Assembly (NCBI GenBank): GCA_900314795.1 | Contig: OMWP01000021.1 | Location: 1 to 33,881 of the forward strand | DNA from: an uncultured Eubacteriales bacterium | Lineage (GTDB): Bacteria; Bacillota; Clostridia; Oscillospirales; Acutalibacteraceae | Length of the DNA stretch: 33,881 bases | Direction: 5' to 3' | Shown: positions 4,438-32,563 of the stretch, in pieces | Numbering within the stretch: the first letter of the stretch is position 1 | Layout of the letters: every line of letters starts with the position of its first letter | Notes under the pieces: generated by a model | The model's input: the letters and a program-made list of their open reading frames with translations, nothing else | Databases searched by the model: none | What the model was told of the DNA's origin: nothing | Made by a program: the position numbers and the translations under genes

Positions 4438-4601
4438 TCATTCACCTTCTTCAGATGACGGAGTTATTTTAACCGATTTATCCGTATACAGTAAGCTTTT
4501 TCGGTCAAATCATCCGTCCGATCAATGATTTATTTTCATACGCGTTCTATTGTATCACAAATCGAATGGTTTTGAAAGACCTTTTCGTCATTTTATTGCA
4601 G

Positions 4602-4621
4602 AATGTTTCACGTGAAACATT
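4602..4621. promoter_or_regulatory. parS site 1
   Basis: A perfect 20-bp palindrome contains the canonical 16-mer TGTTTCACGTGAAACA at 4604-4619, the loading site for ParB/Spo0J. It lies upstream of parA-parB, so the partition complex forms beside its own operon. Confidence 0.95.
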
Positions 4622-4646
4622 TTATATAACGATCAATGCTATTCCG

Positions 4647-4698
4647 CCGACAAATATTTATATGAAAGAAATAAAAAAACCTTTCTTTAATCTGTCGG
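4647..4698. other. Long imperfect stem-loop downstream of noc
   Basis: CCGACA (4647-4652) pairs with TGTCGG (4693-4698), and inside it AAAGAAA pairs with TTTCTTT around an A/T-rich loop. On the minus strand it contains a run of T residues, so it might help terminate noc transcription, but the T-run is within the structure rather than after it. Confidence 0.4.
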
Positions 4699-4703
4699 TA
4701 TTT

Positions 4704-4805
4704 GCAGTAGCTCTCAGCCAATCAGCGTTCGCAAGTATGCTCCGCTTCTTGGGTGAGCCTTGCATGGGAGTTGTTAGCCAAATCATAGATTTGGACAACT
4801 CCTCA
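4704..4805. repeat. Nested-hairpin repeat family, copy 1 (simple form)
   Basis: The first 82 bases match 5047-5128 with two differences. A first hairpin pairs GCAAG/CTTGC and GCTC/GAGC. The second module runs from GCATGGG at 4762 to CCTCA at 4805: the arm GGGAGTTGTTAGCCAAATC (4766-4784) pairs with GATTTGGACAACTCC (4788-4802) across a three-base loop. Copies at 5047 and 32327 carry a second, related hairpin in this loop position. Confidence 0.9.
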
Positions 4806-5011
4806 ACGCCGAACAGCCGCACGCTTTCGCGCACGGCTGTCGGCAAGGGGTTCAGATAAGGAAATGGGTATGAGTGGATAGATTGTTGATTCTTGTTCAA
4901 ACATCCTCTGACAGGATTATCATGGCTGATTGCTATGACGAAGGATATTCAAACACATCACAAAACCTATCGGGAAAGAAATGTATATCAAGGCTTTCGC
5001 CGAGATATCAA

Positions 5012-5040
5012 TATGATGTCATTGCGAGGGAGAATCAAAG
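5012..5040. repeat. Partial family R repeat
   Basis: GATGTCATTGCGAGGGAGAA matches the reverse complement of the family R end seen at 28318-28372 (GTCATTGCGAGGGCTCG). It is truncated and abuts the nested-hairpin copy that starts at 5047, so repeats have accumulated here. Confidence 0.5.
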
Positions 5041-5046
5041 GTAATG

Positions 5047-5198
5047 GCAGTAGCTCCCATCCAATCAGCGTTCGCAAGTATGCTCCGCTTCTTGGGTGAG
5101 CCTTGCATGGGAGTTGTTAGCCAAATCAGCTAACGCATGGGTGCTGTAACCAAAATCAAGATTTTGACAGCACCTCAACAGATTTGGACAACTCCTCA
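5047..5198. repeat. Nested-hairpin repeat family, copy 2 (nested form)
   Basis: The outer hairpin arm GGGAGTTGTTAGCCAAATC (5109-5127) pairs with GATTTGGACAACTCC (5181-5195). In its loop sits a second module (5135-5177): GGGTGCTGTAACCAAAATC (5139-5157) pairs with GATTTTGACAGCACC (5160-5174). The two modules share the plan GCATGGG-stem-TARCC-AAATC, loop, GATTT-stem-CCTCA but differ at paired positions. The loop insert is identical to that at 32387-32435. Confidence 0.9.
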
Positions 5199-5218
5199 CA
5201 ATCTCAACCGAAATCTAT

Positions 5219-6037
5219 TCAGCTGACCGCTTTCGGGATCTTAACAGTGTATTCAATATAGTCGTCGGTCTCATTGCGTCGGGAGATCGCGTTGATCCCG
5301 GACAGACGCATGGTATCGACCGCCTTATTGATCGTGTTGACAAAGATGCGCACATCCTTGATCGCCATCTTGCGCTCGGGTTTATGCGCCGGCTCCTCCT
5401 CGGGTTTTTTCATCAGCACCTGATTGACCAGCTCCTCCGCCTGGGTCACGCTCAGCCCTTCGGCGATAATGCGGCTGAGCACCTCGCGGCGCAGGGCTTC
5501 ATTGTTGATGCGCAGGAGCGTTCGCGCGTGGCGTTCCGAGAGATGCGCCGTCATGATCCATTCCTGCTCCTCAAAGCCGAGGCGCAGCAGACGGAGCTTG
5601 TTTGCGATGGTACTCTGCTTTTTCCCGAGCTTGATCGCCGCCTGCTCTTGCGTCAATCCGTATTTGCGGATCAGTCGCGCGATACCACGGGCTTCTTCAA
5701 ACATATTCAGGTCGGTTCGCTGCAGGTTTTCGATCAATGCCAAGAGTGCACTGTCTTTATCATTACACTTATGGATCACACACGGCACCTTGTTGAGCCC
5801 CGCCATTACGGCGGCTCTGAGCCGTCTTTCGCCCGCAATCAACTCGAATTCCGTACTGTTGATCCGACGCACCACCAAGGGTTGCAGTATCCCGTTCTCG
5901 ACAATAGAACGCGACAGACTCTTGAGCTCTTTCTCGTCAAAGTTACGGCGCGGTTGGGTACGGTTGGGTCTGATCTGGATCGTCGCAATATTCAGCACCT
6001 TATTATCTCTGCCCATTTGCAGATGCACCGTACTCAC
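5219..6037 (-). CDS. noc: Nucleoid occlusion protein Noc (ParB family)
   Basis: This is a 272-residue ParB-family protein encoded next to rsmG, the position of noc in Bacillus. Noc binds NBS sites and blocks division over the nucleoid. The CTP-binding motif GERRLRA is at 69-75 and ENLQRTDL follows at 103-110. At the positions that separate ParB from Noc, it has Gln141, Lys147, Arg152 and Arg169; Noc typically has Gln, Lys, Lys and Arg, so three of four match exactly and the fourth is conservative. The N-terminus lacks an obvious amphipathic membrane helix of the Bacillus Noc type. The start is a GTG behind GGAGG with a short four-base gap; an internal ATG (codon 8) is the alternative. It has its own gap upstream after the rsmG terminator. 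Confidence 0.88.
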   Translation of the reverse strand: MSTVHLQMGRDNKVLNIATIQIRPNRTQPRRNFDEKELKSLSRSIVENGILQPLVVRRINSTEFELIAGERRLRAAVMAGLNKVPCVIHKCNDKDSALLALIENLQRTDLNMFEEARGIARLIRKYGLTQEQAAIKLGKKQSTIANKLRLLRLGFEEQEWIMTAHLSERHARTLLRINNEALRREVLSRIIAEGLSVTQAEELVNQVLMKKPEEEPAHKPERKMAIKDVRIFVNTINKAVDTMRLSGINAISRRNETDDYIEYTVKIPKAVS

Positions 6038-6906: not shown

Positions 6907-8788
6907 CTGTCTGCCTGCCTTTCTGCTTGACGAGGTAGATCATCAGCACATTGATATCCGCGGGGGATACGCCGCTGATTCTGCTTGCCTGCCCGATATT
7001 CAGCGGACGGATCGCGCTGAGCTTTTCCTGTGCTTCCAGTCGCAGCCCTGTAATACTGCGATAATCGATATCATCGGGGAGGAGCTTATTTTCGAGCTTG
7101 CGCATATTCTCCACCGCGGCAAGCTGCTTTTTGATATAGCCCTCATATTTGATTGCAATCTCGACCTGCTCGAAAATTGCGGGGTCAAGGTTGGGTCGGT
7201 CGGGATCGATCGGCGTGAGCACCTCATAATTCAACTCGGGACGCTTGAGCAATTCAATCAGTCGAATCCCTGTTTTTACGTCGGATGTTTCACGTGAAAC
7301 AAGTATCTCGGACAAAACAGGGGAGGGGGCGATCACAGTCTTTGCAACGCGCTTCTTTTCTTCCTTAATCAGCTCTTGTTTATGTAAAAAGCGCTGATAC
7401 CGTTCTTCGCTGATCAAACCCAGCTCATAGCCGATCGGCGTCAAGCGCTCGTCGGCATTATCCTGGCGTAAGATCAAGCGATATTCACTGCGGCTTGTCA
7501 TCATACGATACGGTTCATTTGCTCCCTTGGTGACCAGATCATCGATCAGCGTACCGATATAGGAGGACGCACGGTCGAGGATCAGCGGATCCTTGCCCTG
7601 CACCTTCAACGCGGCGTTCACACCAGCGACAAAACCCTGCGCGGCGGCTTCTTCGTAGCCCGATGATCCATTGAACTGTCCCGCACCGTACAATCCGGGG
7701 AACTGCTTGAACTCCAACGTCGCCAGCATATCGGTCGGATCGATACAGTCATACTCGATCGCATAGGCGGGGCGCATGATCATTGCGTTCTCCAAGCCGG
7801 GGATCGTGTGATAAAAGGCGATCTGCACTTCCTCGGGCAGAGAGGAGCTCATGCCCTGCAAATACATTTCCTCCGTATCCTCACCGCAAGGCTCAATAAA
7901 GAGCTGATGTCGCTTTTTATCCGCAAAGCGCACGATCTTGTCCTCGAGGCTCGGGCAATAACGCGGACCGATGCCCTCGATCTTGCCGCCGTACAGCGGA
8001 CTACGATGGATATTCTCTAAAATGATCTTCTTTGTATTTTCATTCGTCCAACTGACGTGACACTCAACCTTATTCTGTGGGGGGGTGAGGGTGTCATAAG
8101 AAAAAGGTACGGTCGGTTCATCACCCTTTTGCACCTCCAGATCGGAGAAGTCGATCGAACTGCGCTTGACGCGCGCAGGAGTACCCGTCTTGAAACGTCG
8201 GGTTTTGACGCCGAGCTTACGCAAGCTCTCGCCCAAAAACGCCGCAGGAAAGGTTCCATCGGGTCCGCTCTCGAAGCTGACCTCACCCACATAGATTCGT
8301 CCGCCGAGATAGGTACCTGTCGCGATGACGACAGATTTTGCCCGAAATACGCCGAGCATTCTCGTCGTCAATAGCCAGTTTCCGTTATCGTCCTGCGCAA
8401 TATCGGTGATCTCCGCCTGTCGCAGATCGAGATTCTCCTGCAATTCCAGCTTATGCTTCATCACAGCAGAATACTTACGACGGTCGATCTGGGCGCGCAA
8501 AGAGTGAACCGCGGGGCCTTTGCCGCGATTGAGCATACGGCTCTGTAGGGTACATTCGTCCGCCGTACGTCCCATCTCACCACCCAGTGCGTCGATCTCT
8601 CGCACCAAGTGACCCTTTGCCGTACCGCCGATAGAGGGGTTACAGGGACAGTTGCCCACCGCGTCCATATTGATGGTAAAGACTGCGGTGCGACATCCTA
8701 ATCGTGCCGCCGCCAAAGCCGCTTCGATACCCGCGTGACCCGCTCCGATCACAGCAACGTCATATTCACCTGCAAAATAGGTAGACAT
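6899..8788 (-). CDS. mnmG: tRNA uridine-5-carboxymethylaminomethyl enzyme MnmG
   Basis: MnmG (GidA, 629 residues) is the FAD protein that, with MnmE, builds the cmnm5 group on wobble U34 of several tRNAs. The FAD motif GAGHAGIEAA is at 15-24, and the conserved cysteine stretch NCPCNPSIGGTAKGHLVREI follows near residues 46-65. The C-terminal helical domain that contacts MnmE and tRNA is complete (YIKKQ, SGVSPADI). A strong GGAGGAAATT precedes the ATG. A parS site is embedded in the coding sequence at 7286-7301. It is co-transcribed with rsmG and follows mnmE by 86 bases. Confidence 0.97.
   Translation of the reverse strand: MSTYFAGEYDVAVIGAGHAGIEAALAAARLGCRTAVFTINMDAVGNCPCNPSIGGTAKGHLVREIDALGGEMGRTADECTLQSRMLNRGKGPAVHSLRAQIDRRKYSAVMKHKLELQENLDLRQAEITDIAQDDNGNWLLTTRMLGVFRAKSVVIATGTYLGGRIYVGEVSFESGPDGTFPAAFLGESLRKLGVKTRRFKTGTPARVKRSSIDFSDLEVQKGDEPTVPFSYDTLTPPQNKVECHVSWTNENTKKIILENIHRSPLYGGKIEGIGPRYCPSLEDKIVRFADKKRHQLFIEPCGEDTEEMYLQGMSSSLPEEVQIAFYHTIPGLENAMIMRPAYAIEYDCIDPTDMLATLEFKQFPGLYGAGQFNGSSGYEEAAAQGFVAGVNAALKVQGKDPLILDRASSYIGTLIDDLVTKGANEPYRMMTSRSEYRLILRQDNADERLTPIGYELGLISEERYQRFLHKQELIKEEKKRVAKTVIAPSPVLSEILVSRETSDVKTGIRLIELLKRPELNYEVLTPIDPDRPNLDPAIFEQVEIAIKYEGYIKKQLAAVENMRKLENKLLPDDIDYRSITGLRLEAQEKLSAIRPLNIGQASRISGVSPADINVLMIYLVKQKGRQTDE
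7286..7301. promoter_or_regulatory. parS site 2, inside mnmG
   Basis: The exact 16-mer TGTTTCACGTGAAACA lies within the mnmG reading frame, where it encodes CFT-type codons on the minus strand (VSRET in the protein). Intragenic parS near the origin is usual in Firmicutes. Confidence 0.95.
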
Positions 8789-8853
8789 AATTTCCTCCGA
8801 AGAAATCGAGCCTATTTCTCAATTTCTAATTTTCTTATTACTGGTCTGTGTGG

Positions 8854-8877
8854 TAAATGTTTCACGTGAAACATTTA
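8854..8877. promoter_or_regulatory. parS site 3, at the mnmE stop
   Basis: A perfect 24-bp palindrome is centred on the 16-mer TGTTTCACGTGAAACA (8858-8873). It overlaps the mnmE stop codon (8875-8877) and fills much of the mnmE-mnmG gap. Confidence 0.95.
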
Positions 8878-10245
8878 TTTACCGACACAGAATTGATGGA
8901 ATACCCTGTCGATGACTTCATCCGATACGCGTTCGCCTGTCAGCTCACATAAGCTGCCGATCGCTTCTTCGATCAACACCGTGACCGCATCGAGGGTCAT
9001 CCCCATATTTAGTGCCTCTATTGCCTCGGTAACACAATTTATTGATTGTTTTACCAAAGCACGCTGTCTTTCATTATAGATCAGCGCATCTGCCGCATTG
9101 ACGTCACCGATCGCGCAAACATGCTTGATCGCTTCAATTAATTCTTTCATTCCCTCGCCGTGCTTGGCGGAGATATTGACCGTATTCTTAAATGCGGCCT
9201 TGATTTCTTCTTCGTCAAGTTTTAGCGGCAGATCGGATTTGTTCAATATAGCGATTGCATTCGCATCCCGCACCATGTTGATGATCGCCCTGTCCTCGTC
9301 ATCGAGCTCCTTAGAGCTGTCAAACACACAGAGGATCAACGCGGCAGAATTAACTCTATCCTTTGCCTTATCAACGCCGATGCTTTCGATCTCATCCTGC
9401 GTGGTATGGATGCCTGCCGTGTCGCTGAGATTGAGGATAATATCGTCCAAGTTAACGCTTTCTTCAACGACATCTCTGGTCGTGCCCGCCACCGAGGTAA
9501 CAATGCTTTTGTCGTAGCCCGCCAGCAGATTCATCAGCGTACTTTTGCCGACATTCGGCTTGCCCGCGATCACGGTATCGATCCCATCCTTGAGCACCTT
9601 GCCGTTATCGTATTCATTCAAGATCATTTCGAGATTGGCTTTTGCAATCGTCAAAATATCATTTAATGTACTGTTTTCAATCTCGGGGATGTCCTCTTCC
9701 GGATAATCCGCCCACGCGTTAAGGTGCGCCGCCTGATCCGTCAGGGTGCTTTTGATCTCATTGATGCGGCGGGAGAGAGCGCCTTCTTTTACGTTCAACG
9801 CCGCTCTTGCGGACGCCTTGGAGCGGGACGAGATGAGATCCATCACCGATTCCGCTTCCACTAAATCCAATTTTCCGTTGAGAAAGGAACGCTTGGTGAA
9901 TTCACCTGCCTGCGCTGCCTGCGCACCCGCATCAAATACCGCCCTGAGCACCTGCGCCGTGAGGTATACGCCGCCGTGACAGGACAACTCCACCACATCC
10001 TCGCCTGTATAACTGTGAGGCGCCCTGAACACGGTCGCAATACATTCATCAATCGGTTCATGATCGGCATGAGCCTGTCCGAGGGCACAGGTATAGCCCT
10101 TCATCTCATTCAGCATTTTACCTGATTTTGATTGAAAAACCCTGTCCGCAATCGTGATCGCGTCATCGCCCGAAATGCGAATGACGGAGATACCCGCGCT
10201 TGCCTGCGCGGTAGAGATTGCGGCAATCGTTGTATTATTGTTCAT
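8875..10245 (-). CDS. mnmE: tRNA modification GTPase MnmE
   Basis: MnmE (TrmE, 456 residues) is the dimeric GTPase partner of MnmG in wobble-uridine modification. The N-terminal folate-binding domain occupies about 1-120, helical domain pieces flank the G domain, and the G domain has GKPNVGKST (228-236), GTTRD (254-258), DTAG (275-278) and NKSD (335-338). It ends in FCVGK, with the invariant C-terminal cysteine; the usual form is CIGK. Its start is the ATG at 10243-10245. A terminator lies between it and jag, so it probably has its own promoter. Confidence 0.97.
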   Translation of the reverse strand: MNNNTTIAAISTAQASAGISVIRISGDDAITIADRVFQSKSGKMLNEMKGYTCALGQAHADHEPIDECIATVFRAPHSYTGEDVVELSCHGGVYLTAQVLRAVFDAGAQAAQAGEFTKRSFLNGKLDLVEAESVMDLISSRSKASARAALNVKEGALSRRINEIKSTLTDQAAHLNAWADYPEEDIPEIENSTLNDILTIAKANLEMILNEYDNGKVLKDGIDTVIAGKPNVGKSTLMNLLAGYDKSIVTSVAGTTRDVVEESVNLDDIILNLSDTAGIHTTQDEIESIGVDKAKDRVNSAALILCVFDSSKELDDEDRAIINMVRDANAIAILNKSDLPLKLDEEEIKAAFKNTVNISAKHGEGMKELIEAIKHVCAIGDVNAADALIYNERQRALVKQSINCVTEAIEALNMGMTLDAVTVLIEEAIGSLCELTGERVSDEVIDRVFHQFCVGK

Positions 10246-32195: not shown

Positions 32196-32326
32196 TTTTA
32201 TGATAAAATGGTAACAGGTATAGCTCGTAGTATCGAGACTTATACTAAGTTTCATTAAAACACTTTTACATTTATTGCGTAAAATCTCGCAGTACTTTGT
32301 TGTCCTCCTTGACAGGCGCCAGCAGT

Positions 32327-32467
32327 GACACTAAGCCAATCGCTTCGCTCTTGGAGTGTTGTTGCATGGGTGTTGTTAGCCAAATCAGCTAACGCATGGG
32401 TGCTGTAACCAAAATCAAGATTTTGACAGCACCTCAAAAGATTTCAAAAGATTTGGACAACACCTCA
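32327..32467. repeat. Nested-hairpin repeat family, copy 3 (nested form)
   Basis: The outer arm GGGTGTTGTTAGCCAAATC (32368-32385 with its first G run) pairs with GATTTGGACAACACC (32450-32464). In copies 1 and 2 the outer pair is A-T (GGGAG/CTCC); here it is T-A (GGGTG/CACC), a compensatory change. The inner module (32393-32435) is identical to that in copy 2. A short duplication (AAAAGATTTC) precedes the outer right arm. The left part is related to copies 1 and 2 but diverged. Confidence 0.9.
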
Positions 32468-32563
32468 AGCCTGTCTGCGTCGTCCGCCTCGTTCTGCGAA
32501 ATTTCCCGTTAATAAATTTTATTAAAGCGATTAATGGAAACTTAGTATTGGAAAGGTTTGTAA

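Follow-up and report, generated by a model that had tools for sequence, protein, structure and literature searches.

A dispersed two-hairpin DNA repeat carries a 50-bp hairpin unit nested at the loop edge of its own family

Here we show that three hairpin modules in a contig of an uncultured Eubacteriales bacterium belong to a dispersed two-hairpin repeat, and that a fixed 50-bp hairpin unit of this family lies, in one orientation and at one exact position, within the loops of other family members. A sequence-only reading of this DNA had suggested that one hairpin landed in the loop of another; this is borne out repeatedly and goes well beyond the two window copies from which it was proposed, with 24 nested loci in six genomes. 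The window, the whole stretch of 33,881 nucleotides that was analysed, is one contig of a draft genome of 2.53 Mb in 67 contigs, referred to below as G000.

Results

Anatomy of the element and of the window copies

The full element consists of hairpin 1 followed by hairpin 2, is about 85-110 bp long and ends in CTCA. In hairpin 2 a lower stem of 8 bp and an upper stem of 7 bp are separated, on the 5' side only, by a bulge of 3 nt; a loop of 2-4 nt closes the upper stem, and the sequence ends in the tail CTCA. Hairpin 1, likewise bulged, often precedes it and is tagged GTAG, GTGG or GTGA; its arms vary in matched fashion (GCGCT/AGCGC, GCTCTC/GAGAGC, ACACT/AGTGT) and its tops are differing small palindromes, for example GCGGATAAATCCGC, ACAGACTCCGTCTGT, CCGACACGCGTGTCCG and ACAGGCTTTGCCTGT. 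CA stands ahead of the tag in 43 of 45 elements (GTGG in 25, GTAG in 19 and GTGA in 1), a tally that is partly built in, since the rows were chosen by a pattern containing CAGTRR. Neither hairpin 2 nor the nested unit has a GTAG, GTGG or GTRG tag at its 5' foot.

All three window copies that had been described are present (Table 1). The coordinates given for copies 1 and 2 are exact, while copy 3 begins five bases earlier than had been read, with a GCAGT foot at 32322. The differences between arms had also been read correctly, GTTGT/ACAAC in the outer module standing against GCTGT/ACAGC in the inner one, and one pair being A-T in copies 1 and 2 but T-A in copy 3. Every window copy has a separate hairpin ahead of hairpin 2, which in copy 1 runs GCAGTAGCTC..CCAATC..TTGG..GAGCCTTGC. 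Folded as single-stranded DNA and compared with dinucleotide shuffles, the copies gave z-scores of -6.0 (4704-4806), -6.6 (5047-5199) and -4.2 (32327-32468), and in each case none of 200 shuffles equalled the native sequence. All are intergenic, two of them between ParB-like and ParA-like genes and one ahead of a ParA/MinD-like gene.

Table 1. Positions of the hairpin elements and their parts in the window.
Feature	Position	Strand	Support
Element copy 1, simple: hairpin 1 and hairpin 2, CTCA end	4704..4805	+	Homologues found; covariance model match 4762-4802
Copy 1, hairpin 1	about 4704-4763	+	
Copy 1, hairpin 2	4762-4804	+	
Element copy 2: hairpin 1 and hairpin 2, loop with 50-bp unit	5047..5198	+	Sequence, folding
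Nested 50-bp unit of copy 2: AGCTAAC, GCTGT-type hairpin, CTCA	5128..5177	+	Covariance model match 5135-5174
Residual host loop ACA of copy 2	5178-5180	+	
Element copy 3: GTGA-tagged hairpin 1, nested hairpin 2	32322..32467	+	Sequence, folding
Nested 50-bp unit in the loop of copy 3	32387..32436	+	Covariance model match 32394-32433
CAAAAGATTT twice in tandem, right edge of the copy 3 nested unit	32435..32454	+	Read directly

Several other features were seen in passing. Two perfect TGTTTCACGTGAAACA palindromes, at window positions 4604-4619 and 8858-8873 near ParA/ParB-like genes, match the parS consensus. A segment of roughly 35-42 bp (4842-4883), lying between the ParB-like gene and the ParA-like gene, is matched in 33 of 35 other genomes of the same genus and in 0 of 23 outside it, and has no Rfam match. 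Chimeric hairpins, whose top and stem come from different hairpin types, occur at L110, L045 and L056, as if tops were swapped as units. On contig C30 of the sister species G012 (L032), three 102-bp type-A units stand in a tandem array, with the third truncated by the contig end; the gene beside this array matches window 8858-9110 at its end, and the corresponding window gap (8788-8875) has no array.

Copy number and distribution

A covariance-model search of this genome and its relatives, 59 genomes in all, returned many further copies. The hairpin-2 model has at least 80 matches in G000, at least 79 in G012 and at least 13 in a third genome, G035, all lower bounds because at most 111 candidates were scored per genome. 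Among the matches listed, every other genome has at most four, 12 of the 59 genomes have any, and the sole genome outside the genus has a single weak match. We read the hairpin repeat as a recent expansion at the level of the genus. ORFs of at least 150 aa take up 74% of the fetched stretches but contain only 6 of the 57 instances; under a looser criterion, 30 of 85 right arms fall in mechanical ORFs of at least 100 aa, against 1334 of 2160 random points. Viral contigs gave no exact match to the hairpin-2 left-arm pattern, and a match in a Saprospiraceae bin (L087), a left arm without a hairpin, was rejected as chance. Rfam 15 has no match in the window at the gathering score; under relaxed settings three below-threshold matches (E 0.88-4.7) fall in 4500-5230. 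We did not find the family in print among open-licence PMC papers.

Pairing is maintained around a constant bulge

The matched arms had been taken as a sign of maintained pairing, with selection or template copying between arms as its cause, and the larger sample upholds the maintenance of pairing. In 45 of the 48 distinct hairpin-2 sequences, gathered by two-arm patterns with up to three substitutions each, a procedure that favours paired copies, 99.0% of 675 cells pair and 36 cells are altered on both sides, compared with 10.2 in shuffles. None of 500 shuffles reached the covariation score or the count of both-side changes; four of the five measures were reached by no shuffle, and the fifth, the number of further pair types, by 18 of 500. 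Both-side changes occur at five pairs (A-T to T-A, T-A to C-G, C-G to A-T and G-C, G-C to T-A, and G-C to A-T), and sliding the partner by one to three columns lowers pairing to 25-49%. A second alignment, of 45 of the 56 full elements, takes in the top part of hairpin 1; its lower stem, in which the pairing of types A and B is offset by one base, was for that reason not counted. In this alignment 98.8% of cells pair, nine pairs have both-side changes, and 76 cells are altered on both sides against 22.1 in shuffles, with neither this count nor the covariation score reached by any of 500; further pair types were not above shuffles (241 of 500 reach the observed number). Near-duplicate, array or rearranged rows, one reverse-strand row and one spurious row were left out of the two alignments. 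Covariation therefore holds in both once more copies are aligned.

The hairpin-2 bulge is 3 nt long in all 45 distinct sequences, in 13 different bulge sequences. Simple template copying between arms should erase a one-sided bulge, and hence fits poorly as the main cause of the matched arms. One locus (L042/L100) resembles an arm-foot copy or a recombinant.

A 50-bp unit nested at one position of the hairpin-2 loop

The nested unit runs AGCTA...CTCA (TGCTA once, at L089) and is placed at C|A, at the 5' edge of the hairpin-2 loop and in the orientation of its host, leaving a host loop of AAA, ACA or AA. The nested loci comprise 11 in G000, 2 in G012 (an uncultured Clostridia bin), 4 in Ruminococcaceae bacterium UBA4306, 2 in Oscillospiraceae bacterium UBA10299, 1 in uncultured Ruminococcus RUG10988 and 4 in G035, where 11 of the 13 matches were looked at; the names of these carriers place the unit among uncultured Oscillospiraceae-type Clostridia. 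The total is made up of 22 nested rows listed by pattern and two loci that the pattern missed (L003 and L219), with L171 being the same locus as L217, L081 and L090 (the G012 loci L094 and L092) counted once, and a degenerate nested copy (L108) excluded. At L072/L097 the outer right arm is degraded, and window copy 3 has a 10-bp duplication at its right junction, where the tandem CAAAAGATTT is a local duplication.

A search of the 59 genomes with the inner arm, allowing up to two mismatches, gave 11 matches in G000, all within a hairpin-2 loop, and three in G012, two of them nested and one a plain hairpin 2. At the loci found, the unit was never in the loop of a REP: each occurrence either lies within a hairpin-2 loop or is itself a plain hairpin 2. 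In an exact scan of genome contigs, full elements of two relatives (L084, L086 and L088) were found to have this sequence as their ordinary hairpin 2, and the inserted unit is thus itself a member of the family. It is carried by at least eight outer arm/bulge combinations in the G000 clade and by three in G035. The G035 unit is a distinct 50-bp sequence of the same plan, with an AGCTAT leader and other arms, found in at least three other outer hairpins; at all four loci it has one sequence with the same lower-stem mismatch. It may have been made independently, or may descend from the same ancient unit.

Close species provide pairs of loci with and without the unit; those described here are among the matches listed, and further pairs may exist. 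In L002 (G000) and L041 (G012) the outer hairpin, arms and bulge are identical and hairpin 2 differs by the 50 bp, with a right flank that is 91% identical over 340 bp. L079 (UBA10299) and L073 (G000) have the whole element in common together with about 16 bp on the left and 25 bp on the right, beyond which the sequences have mostly diverged. L220 (G035) and L230 (G005) share flanks on both sides and keep the outer arms and bulge, although these two may be paralogous because both lie within a larger repeat. A fourth, less clean comparison sets L080 and L140 against L127, where bulge and loop differ and G000 has a rearranged array. The pairs define a 50-bp insert with only 1 nt of alignment ambiguity and without the inverted terminal repeats of a classical DDE-type MITE, and no target duplication was seen at them.

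GTAGGG REPs as hosts

The element is also found within GTAGGG REPs. In G000, 18 of 60 instances have the REP foot CCCTAC no more than 28 nt beyond their right end, and in G012 28 of 65 do, compared with about 2% of random 28-nt stretches of the same loci; these instances were pattern-collected from loci fetched for matching the family, and the test was chosen after the flanks had been seen. A REP foot in the opposite orientation was not found within 28 nt of the right end of any G000 or G012 instance. At least 6 nt of the other REP arm stands directly to the left in 12 of the 18 and 14 of the 28, one of the G000 cases (L095) perhaps being a chance match, and about one fifth of the collected elements are flanked by both arms. 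In G035 the foot is on the right in 0 of 11 instances, one of which has GTAGGG in the opposite orientation. An empty REP, CGGTACGTCGCAAGCGCCGTACCCTAC, can be compared with the same REP filled in L127, and in REP hosts of the L127 type the element has CAAGC on either end, perhaps a 5-bp target duplication. In L094 REP, element and inner unit fold as a single structure (z -6.5), and nests thus reach up to three levels. Among the other instances are some in which a REP arm on the right is combined with left-hand flanking sequence of another repeat, a pattern suggestive of recombination between copies.

Complementarity between the two flanks gave little further. A first test was weak, real and swapped flanks not being convincingly separated. 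Measured as duplex energy, complementarity was not above swapped-flank controls (p 0.054, 0.18 and 0.38); set against random points it was not above them in G000 or G012 (p 0.98 each), and G035 gave p 0.04.

GTAGGG REPs themselves occur at many loci in G000 and G012, with a common foot and many different stems (among them GTAGGGGAGGGGCTTGCTCCTCCC, GTAGGGTACGGCGCTTGCCGACGTACC and GTAGGGGTCGGCGCCCTCGACGACCC), and the loops of some contain ACACGCGTGT palindromes. RAYT-like genes with GTAGGG REPs in their own reading frame are present at L243, L244 and L245, at each of these as an inverted pair, and the RAYT-like gene of L029 has one GTAGGG REP inside and one just upstream.

Discussion

The mobility of the hairpin family is well supported. 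The reading we prefer, to which we give an even chance, is that these are non-autonomous, REP-like mobile hairpins. Copies would spread as folded single-stranded DNA; a Y1 HUH enzyme, most probably one of the RAYT (TnpA-REP) type, would cut and join it at CA dinucleotides, with exposed hairpin loops as preferred landing sites and insertion at C|A. Through the bulge the enzyme would recognise the strand to be read, and such a strand mark would account for the retention of bulge length and surrounding pairing while the sequence drifts. Single-strand transposition by an HUH enzyme is consistent with the exact placement at a single point, the fixed orientation and the one-sided bulge. The published work on TnpA-REP agrees in part: in excerpts of one study, a bulge is needed for the REPs of E. 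coli, where cutting is at CT beside the hairpin, and in a Marinomonas system CA is also cut and a GTGG tag is tolerated at lower efficiency (PMC8266576).

The mover is perhaps a RAYT-type transposase. RAYT-like genes were found in G000 and G012, and the three that were tested match NF047646 below its cut-off. However, the presence of RAYT does not track the family: G035 has its element matches without a RAYT match, and G034, G024 and G033 have RAYT matches without a match to the hairpin-2 model. Seven fetched RAYT stretches were also searched with the model and gave no significant copy (best E 0.86); about 3 kb separate the RAYT of G000 contig C39 from the closest known copy, and GC skew gave no strand bias (27 of 57). 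In addition, strict C|A cutting at both ends would leave one A fewer than the nested junction has. The confinement of the unit to hairpin-2 loops would suit exchange between similar copies as well. On account of the mismatch between RAYT and element genomes, the RAYT stretches devoid of copies, the lack of strand bias and this confinement, the enzyme is one that we infer, and we keep recombination as a serious rival. We also advance tentatively, as something rather short of an even chance, that this is a loop-homing single-stranded-DNA element for which the loops of existing hairpins, above all of its own family and of REPs, serve as landing sites, so that palindromes would grow by nesting instead of in tandem, with a gene-free insert and the bulge as strand mark.

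Under recombination the unit would have arisen once and spread between copies by short-homology recombination, gene conversion or template switching, with no transposase acting on the inner unit. The unit is nearly invariant within a clade while the outer arms vary, the four G035 units share even their mismatch, and nested residual loops are only AAA, ACA or AA, never the common ATA. Chimeras, with a type-A top on a type-B stem (L110) or a hairpin-1 top on a hairpin-2 stem (L045/L056), and rearranged tandem arrays (L040/L140) point the same way. Against this, L002/L041 and L079/L073 keep the same outer arms and bulge in the nested and the simple copy, so that the exchanged tract would be limited to the loop between a few identical bases, and the number of different outer arm/bulge combinations that carry the unit in each clade is hard to square with such exchange. 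We consider this explanation less likely than not.

It is improbable that the hairpins work as RNA, whether as terminators, mRNA ends or small RNAs, with pairing kept for that role and spread as a by-product. The observed depletion from genes speaks for such a role, and the covariation agrees with RNA as well as with DNA, but no Rfam family reaches threshold, the right flanks shown have, by eye, no T run directly after the hairpin, and all gene arrangements are present. Only 17 of 57 instances are co-oriented with the local coding majority (a nominal p of 0.003, the copies not being independent), and this orientation counts weakly against a sense-strand terminator.

Similarly doubtful is descent by deletion, as a MITE, from an IS200/IS605 element whose left and right ends became hairpins 1 and 2: two subterminal-type hairpins with a CTCA/TCAA tail resemble the ends of such elements, and IS200-transposase-like Y1_Tnp genes are present in G000 (where a contig end cuts the gene), G012 and G035, but a TnpB-type zinc ribbon scored above cut-off in 0 of 7 genomes, the IS200-like locus L151 has no significant match to the hairpin-2 model, no transposase was noticed between the hairpins at the fetched loci, and a gene-bearing IS200/TnpB parent with the same ends was not seen in the 67-contig draft of G000.

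Among known systems, integron attC sites likewise fold as single strands into hairpins that have extrahelical bases and variable tops, and the hairpin element resembles them in this; identity with attC was rejected by eye, no attC consensus boxes having been seen. The closest likeness is to GTAG-tagged REPs and REPtrons. Hairpin 2 agrees with the definition of a REP as a short imperfect palindrome of 21-65 bases that is extragenic and of high copy number, and the family further resembles REPs in its bulged stem, in the RAYT-like genes of G000 and G012 and, as far as the pattern-chosen rows show, in the GTAG or GTGG at the foot of hairpin 1. In a REPtron, however, the repeats flank or sit within the RAYT gene, and at the RAYT genes looked at here it is the GTAGGG REPs and not hairpin 2 that are found there. 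The family differs also in that its mobile unit, hairpin 2, lacks the GTAG tag, that two unlike hairpins stand in direct order, and that it nests in the loops of its own family. We conclude that the family is real, maintained and mobile, and most like REPs, without being a proven member of a REPtron.

Nested palindromes as a kind are not new, as excerpts of earlier reports make clear. A few REP families are reported inside other palindromes (PMC3733652). REP-targeting IS elements (IS1397, ISKpn1, IS621 and ISRm22) are comparable in that they insert into a palindromic REP, ISRm22 doing so at the axis of palindromy (PMC1525189); they bear genes, and ISRm22 has direct repeats, whereas the insert described here is a gene-free 50-bp hairpin. 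Palindromes of Volvox organelles are reported inserted within one another (PMC2670323), and double-hairpin mobile elements are known from fungal mitochondria (Paquin 2000, cited in PMC2670323). These repeats are organellar and of other sequences, and the excerpts describe no exact insertion rule or one-sided bulge. For a fixed hairpin cassette at the loop edge of its own family, nesting up to three levels, we did not find a precedent in open-licence PMC papers.

Little is understood of how REPs and other gene-free palindromes of this sort spread. The footprints of the present family are unusually clear, with a fixed 50-bp unit, an exact landing point, pairs with and without the insert in close species, and nests of up to three levels. 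If loops are indeed the target, the family would make it possible to test directly whether folded single-stranded DNA is a substrate into which REP-type enzymes insert, and would represent a route by which larger covarying structures arise through insertion.
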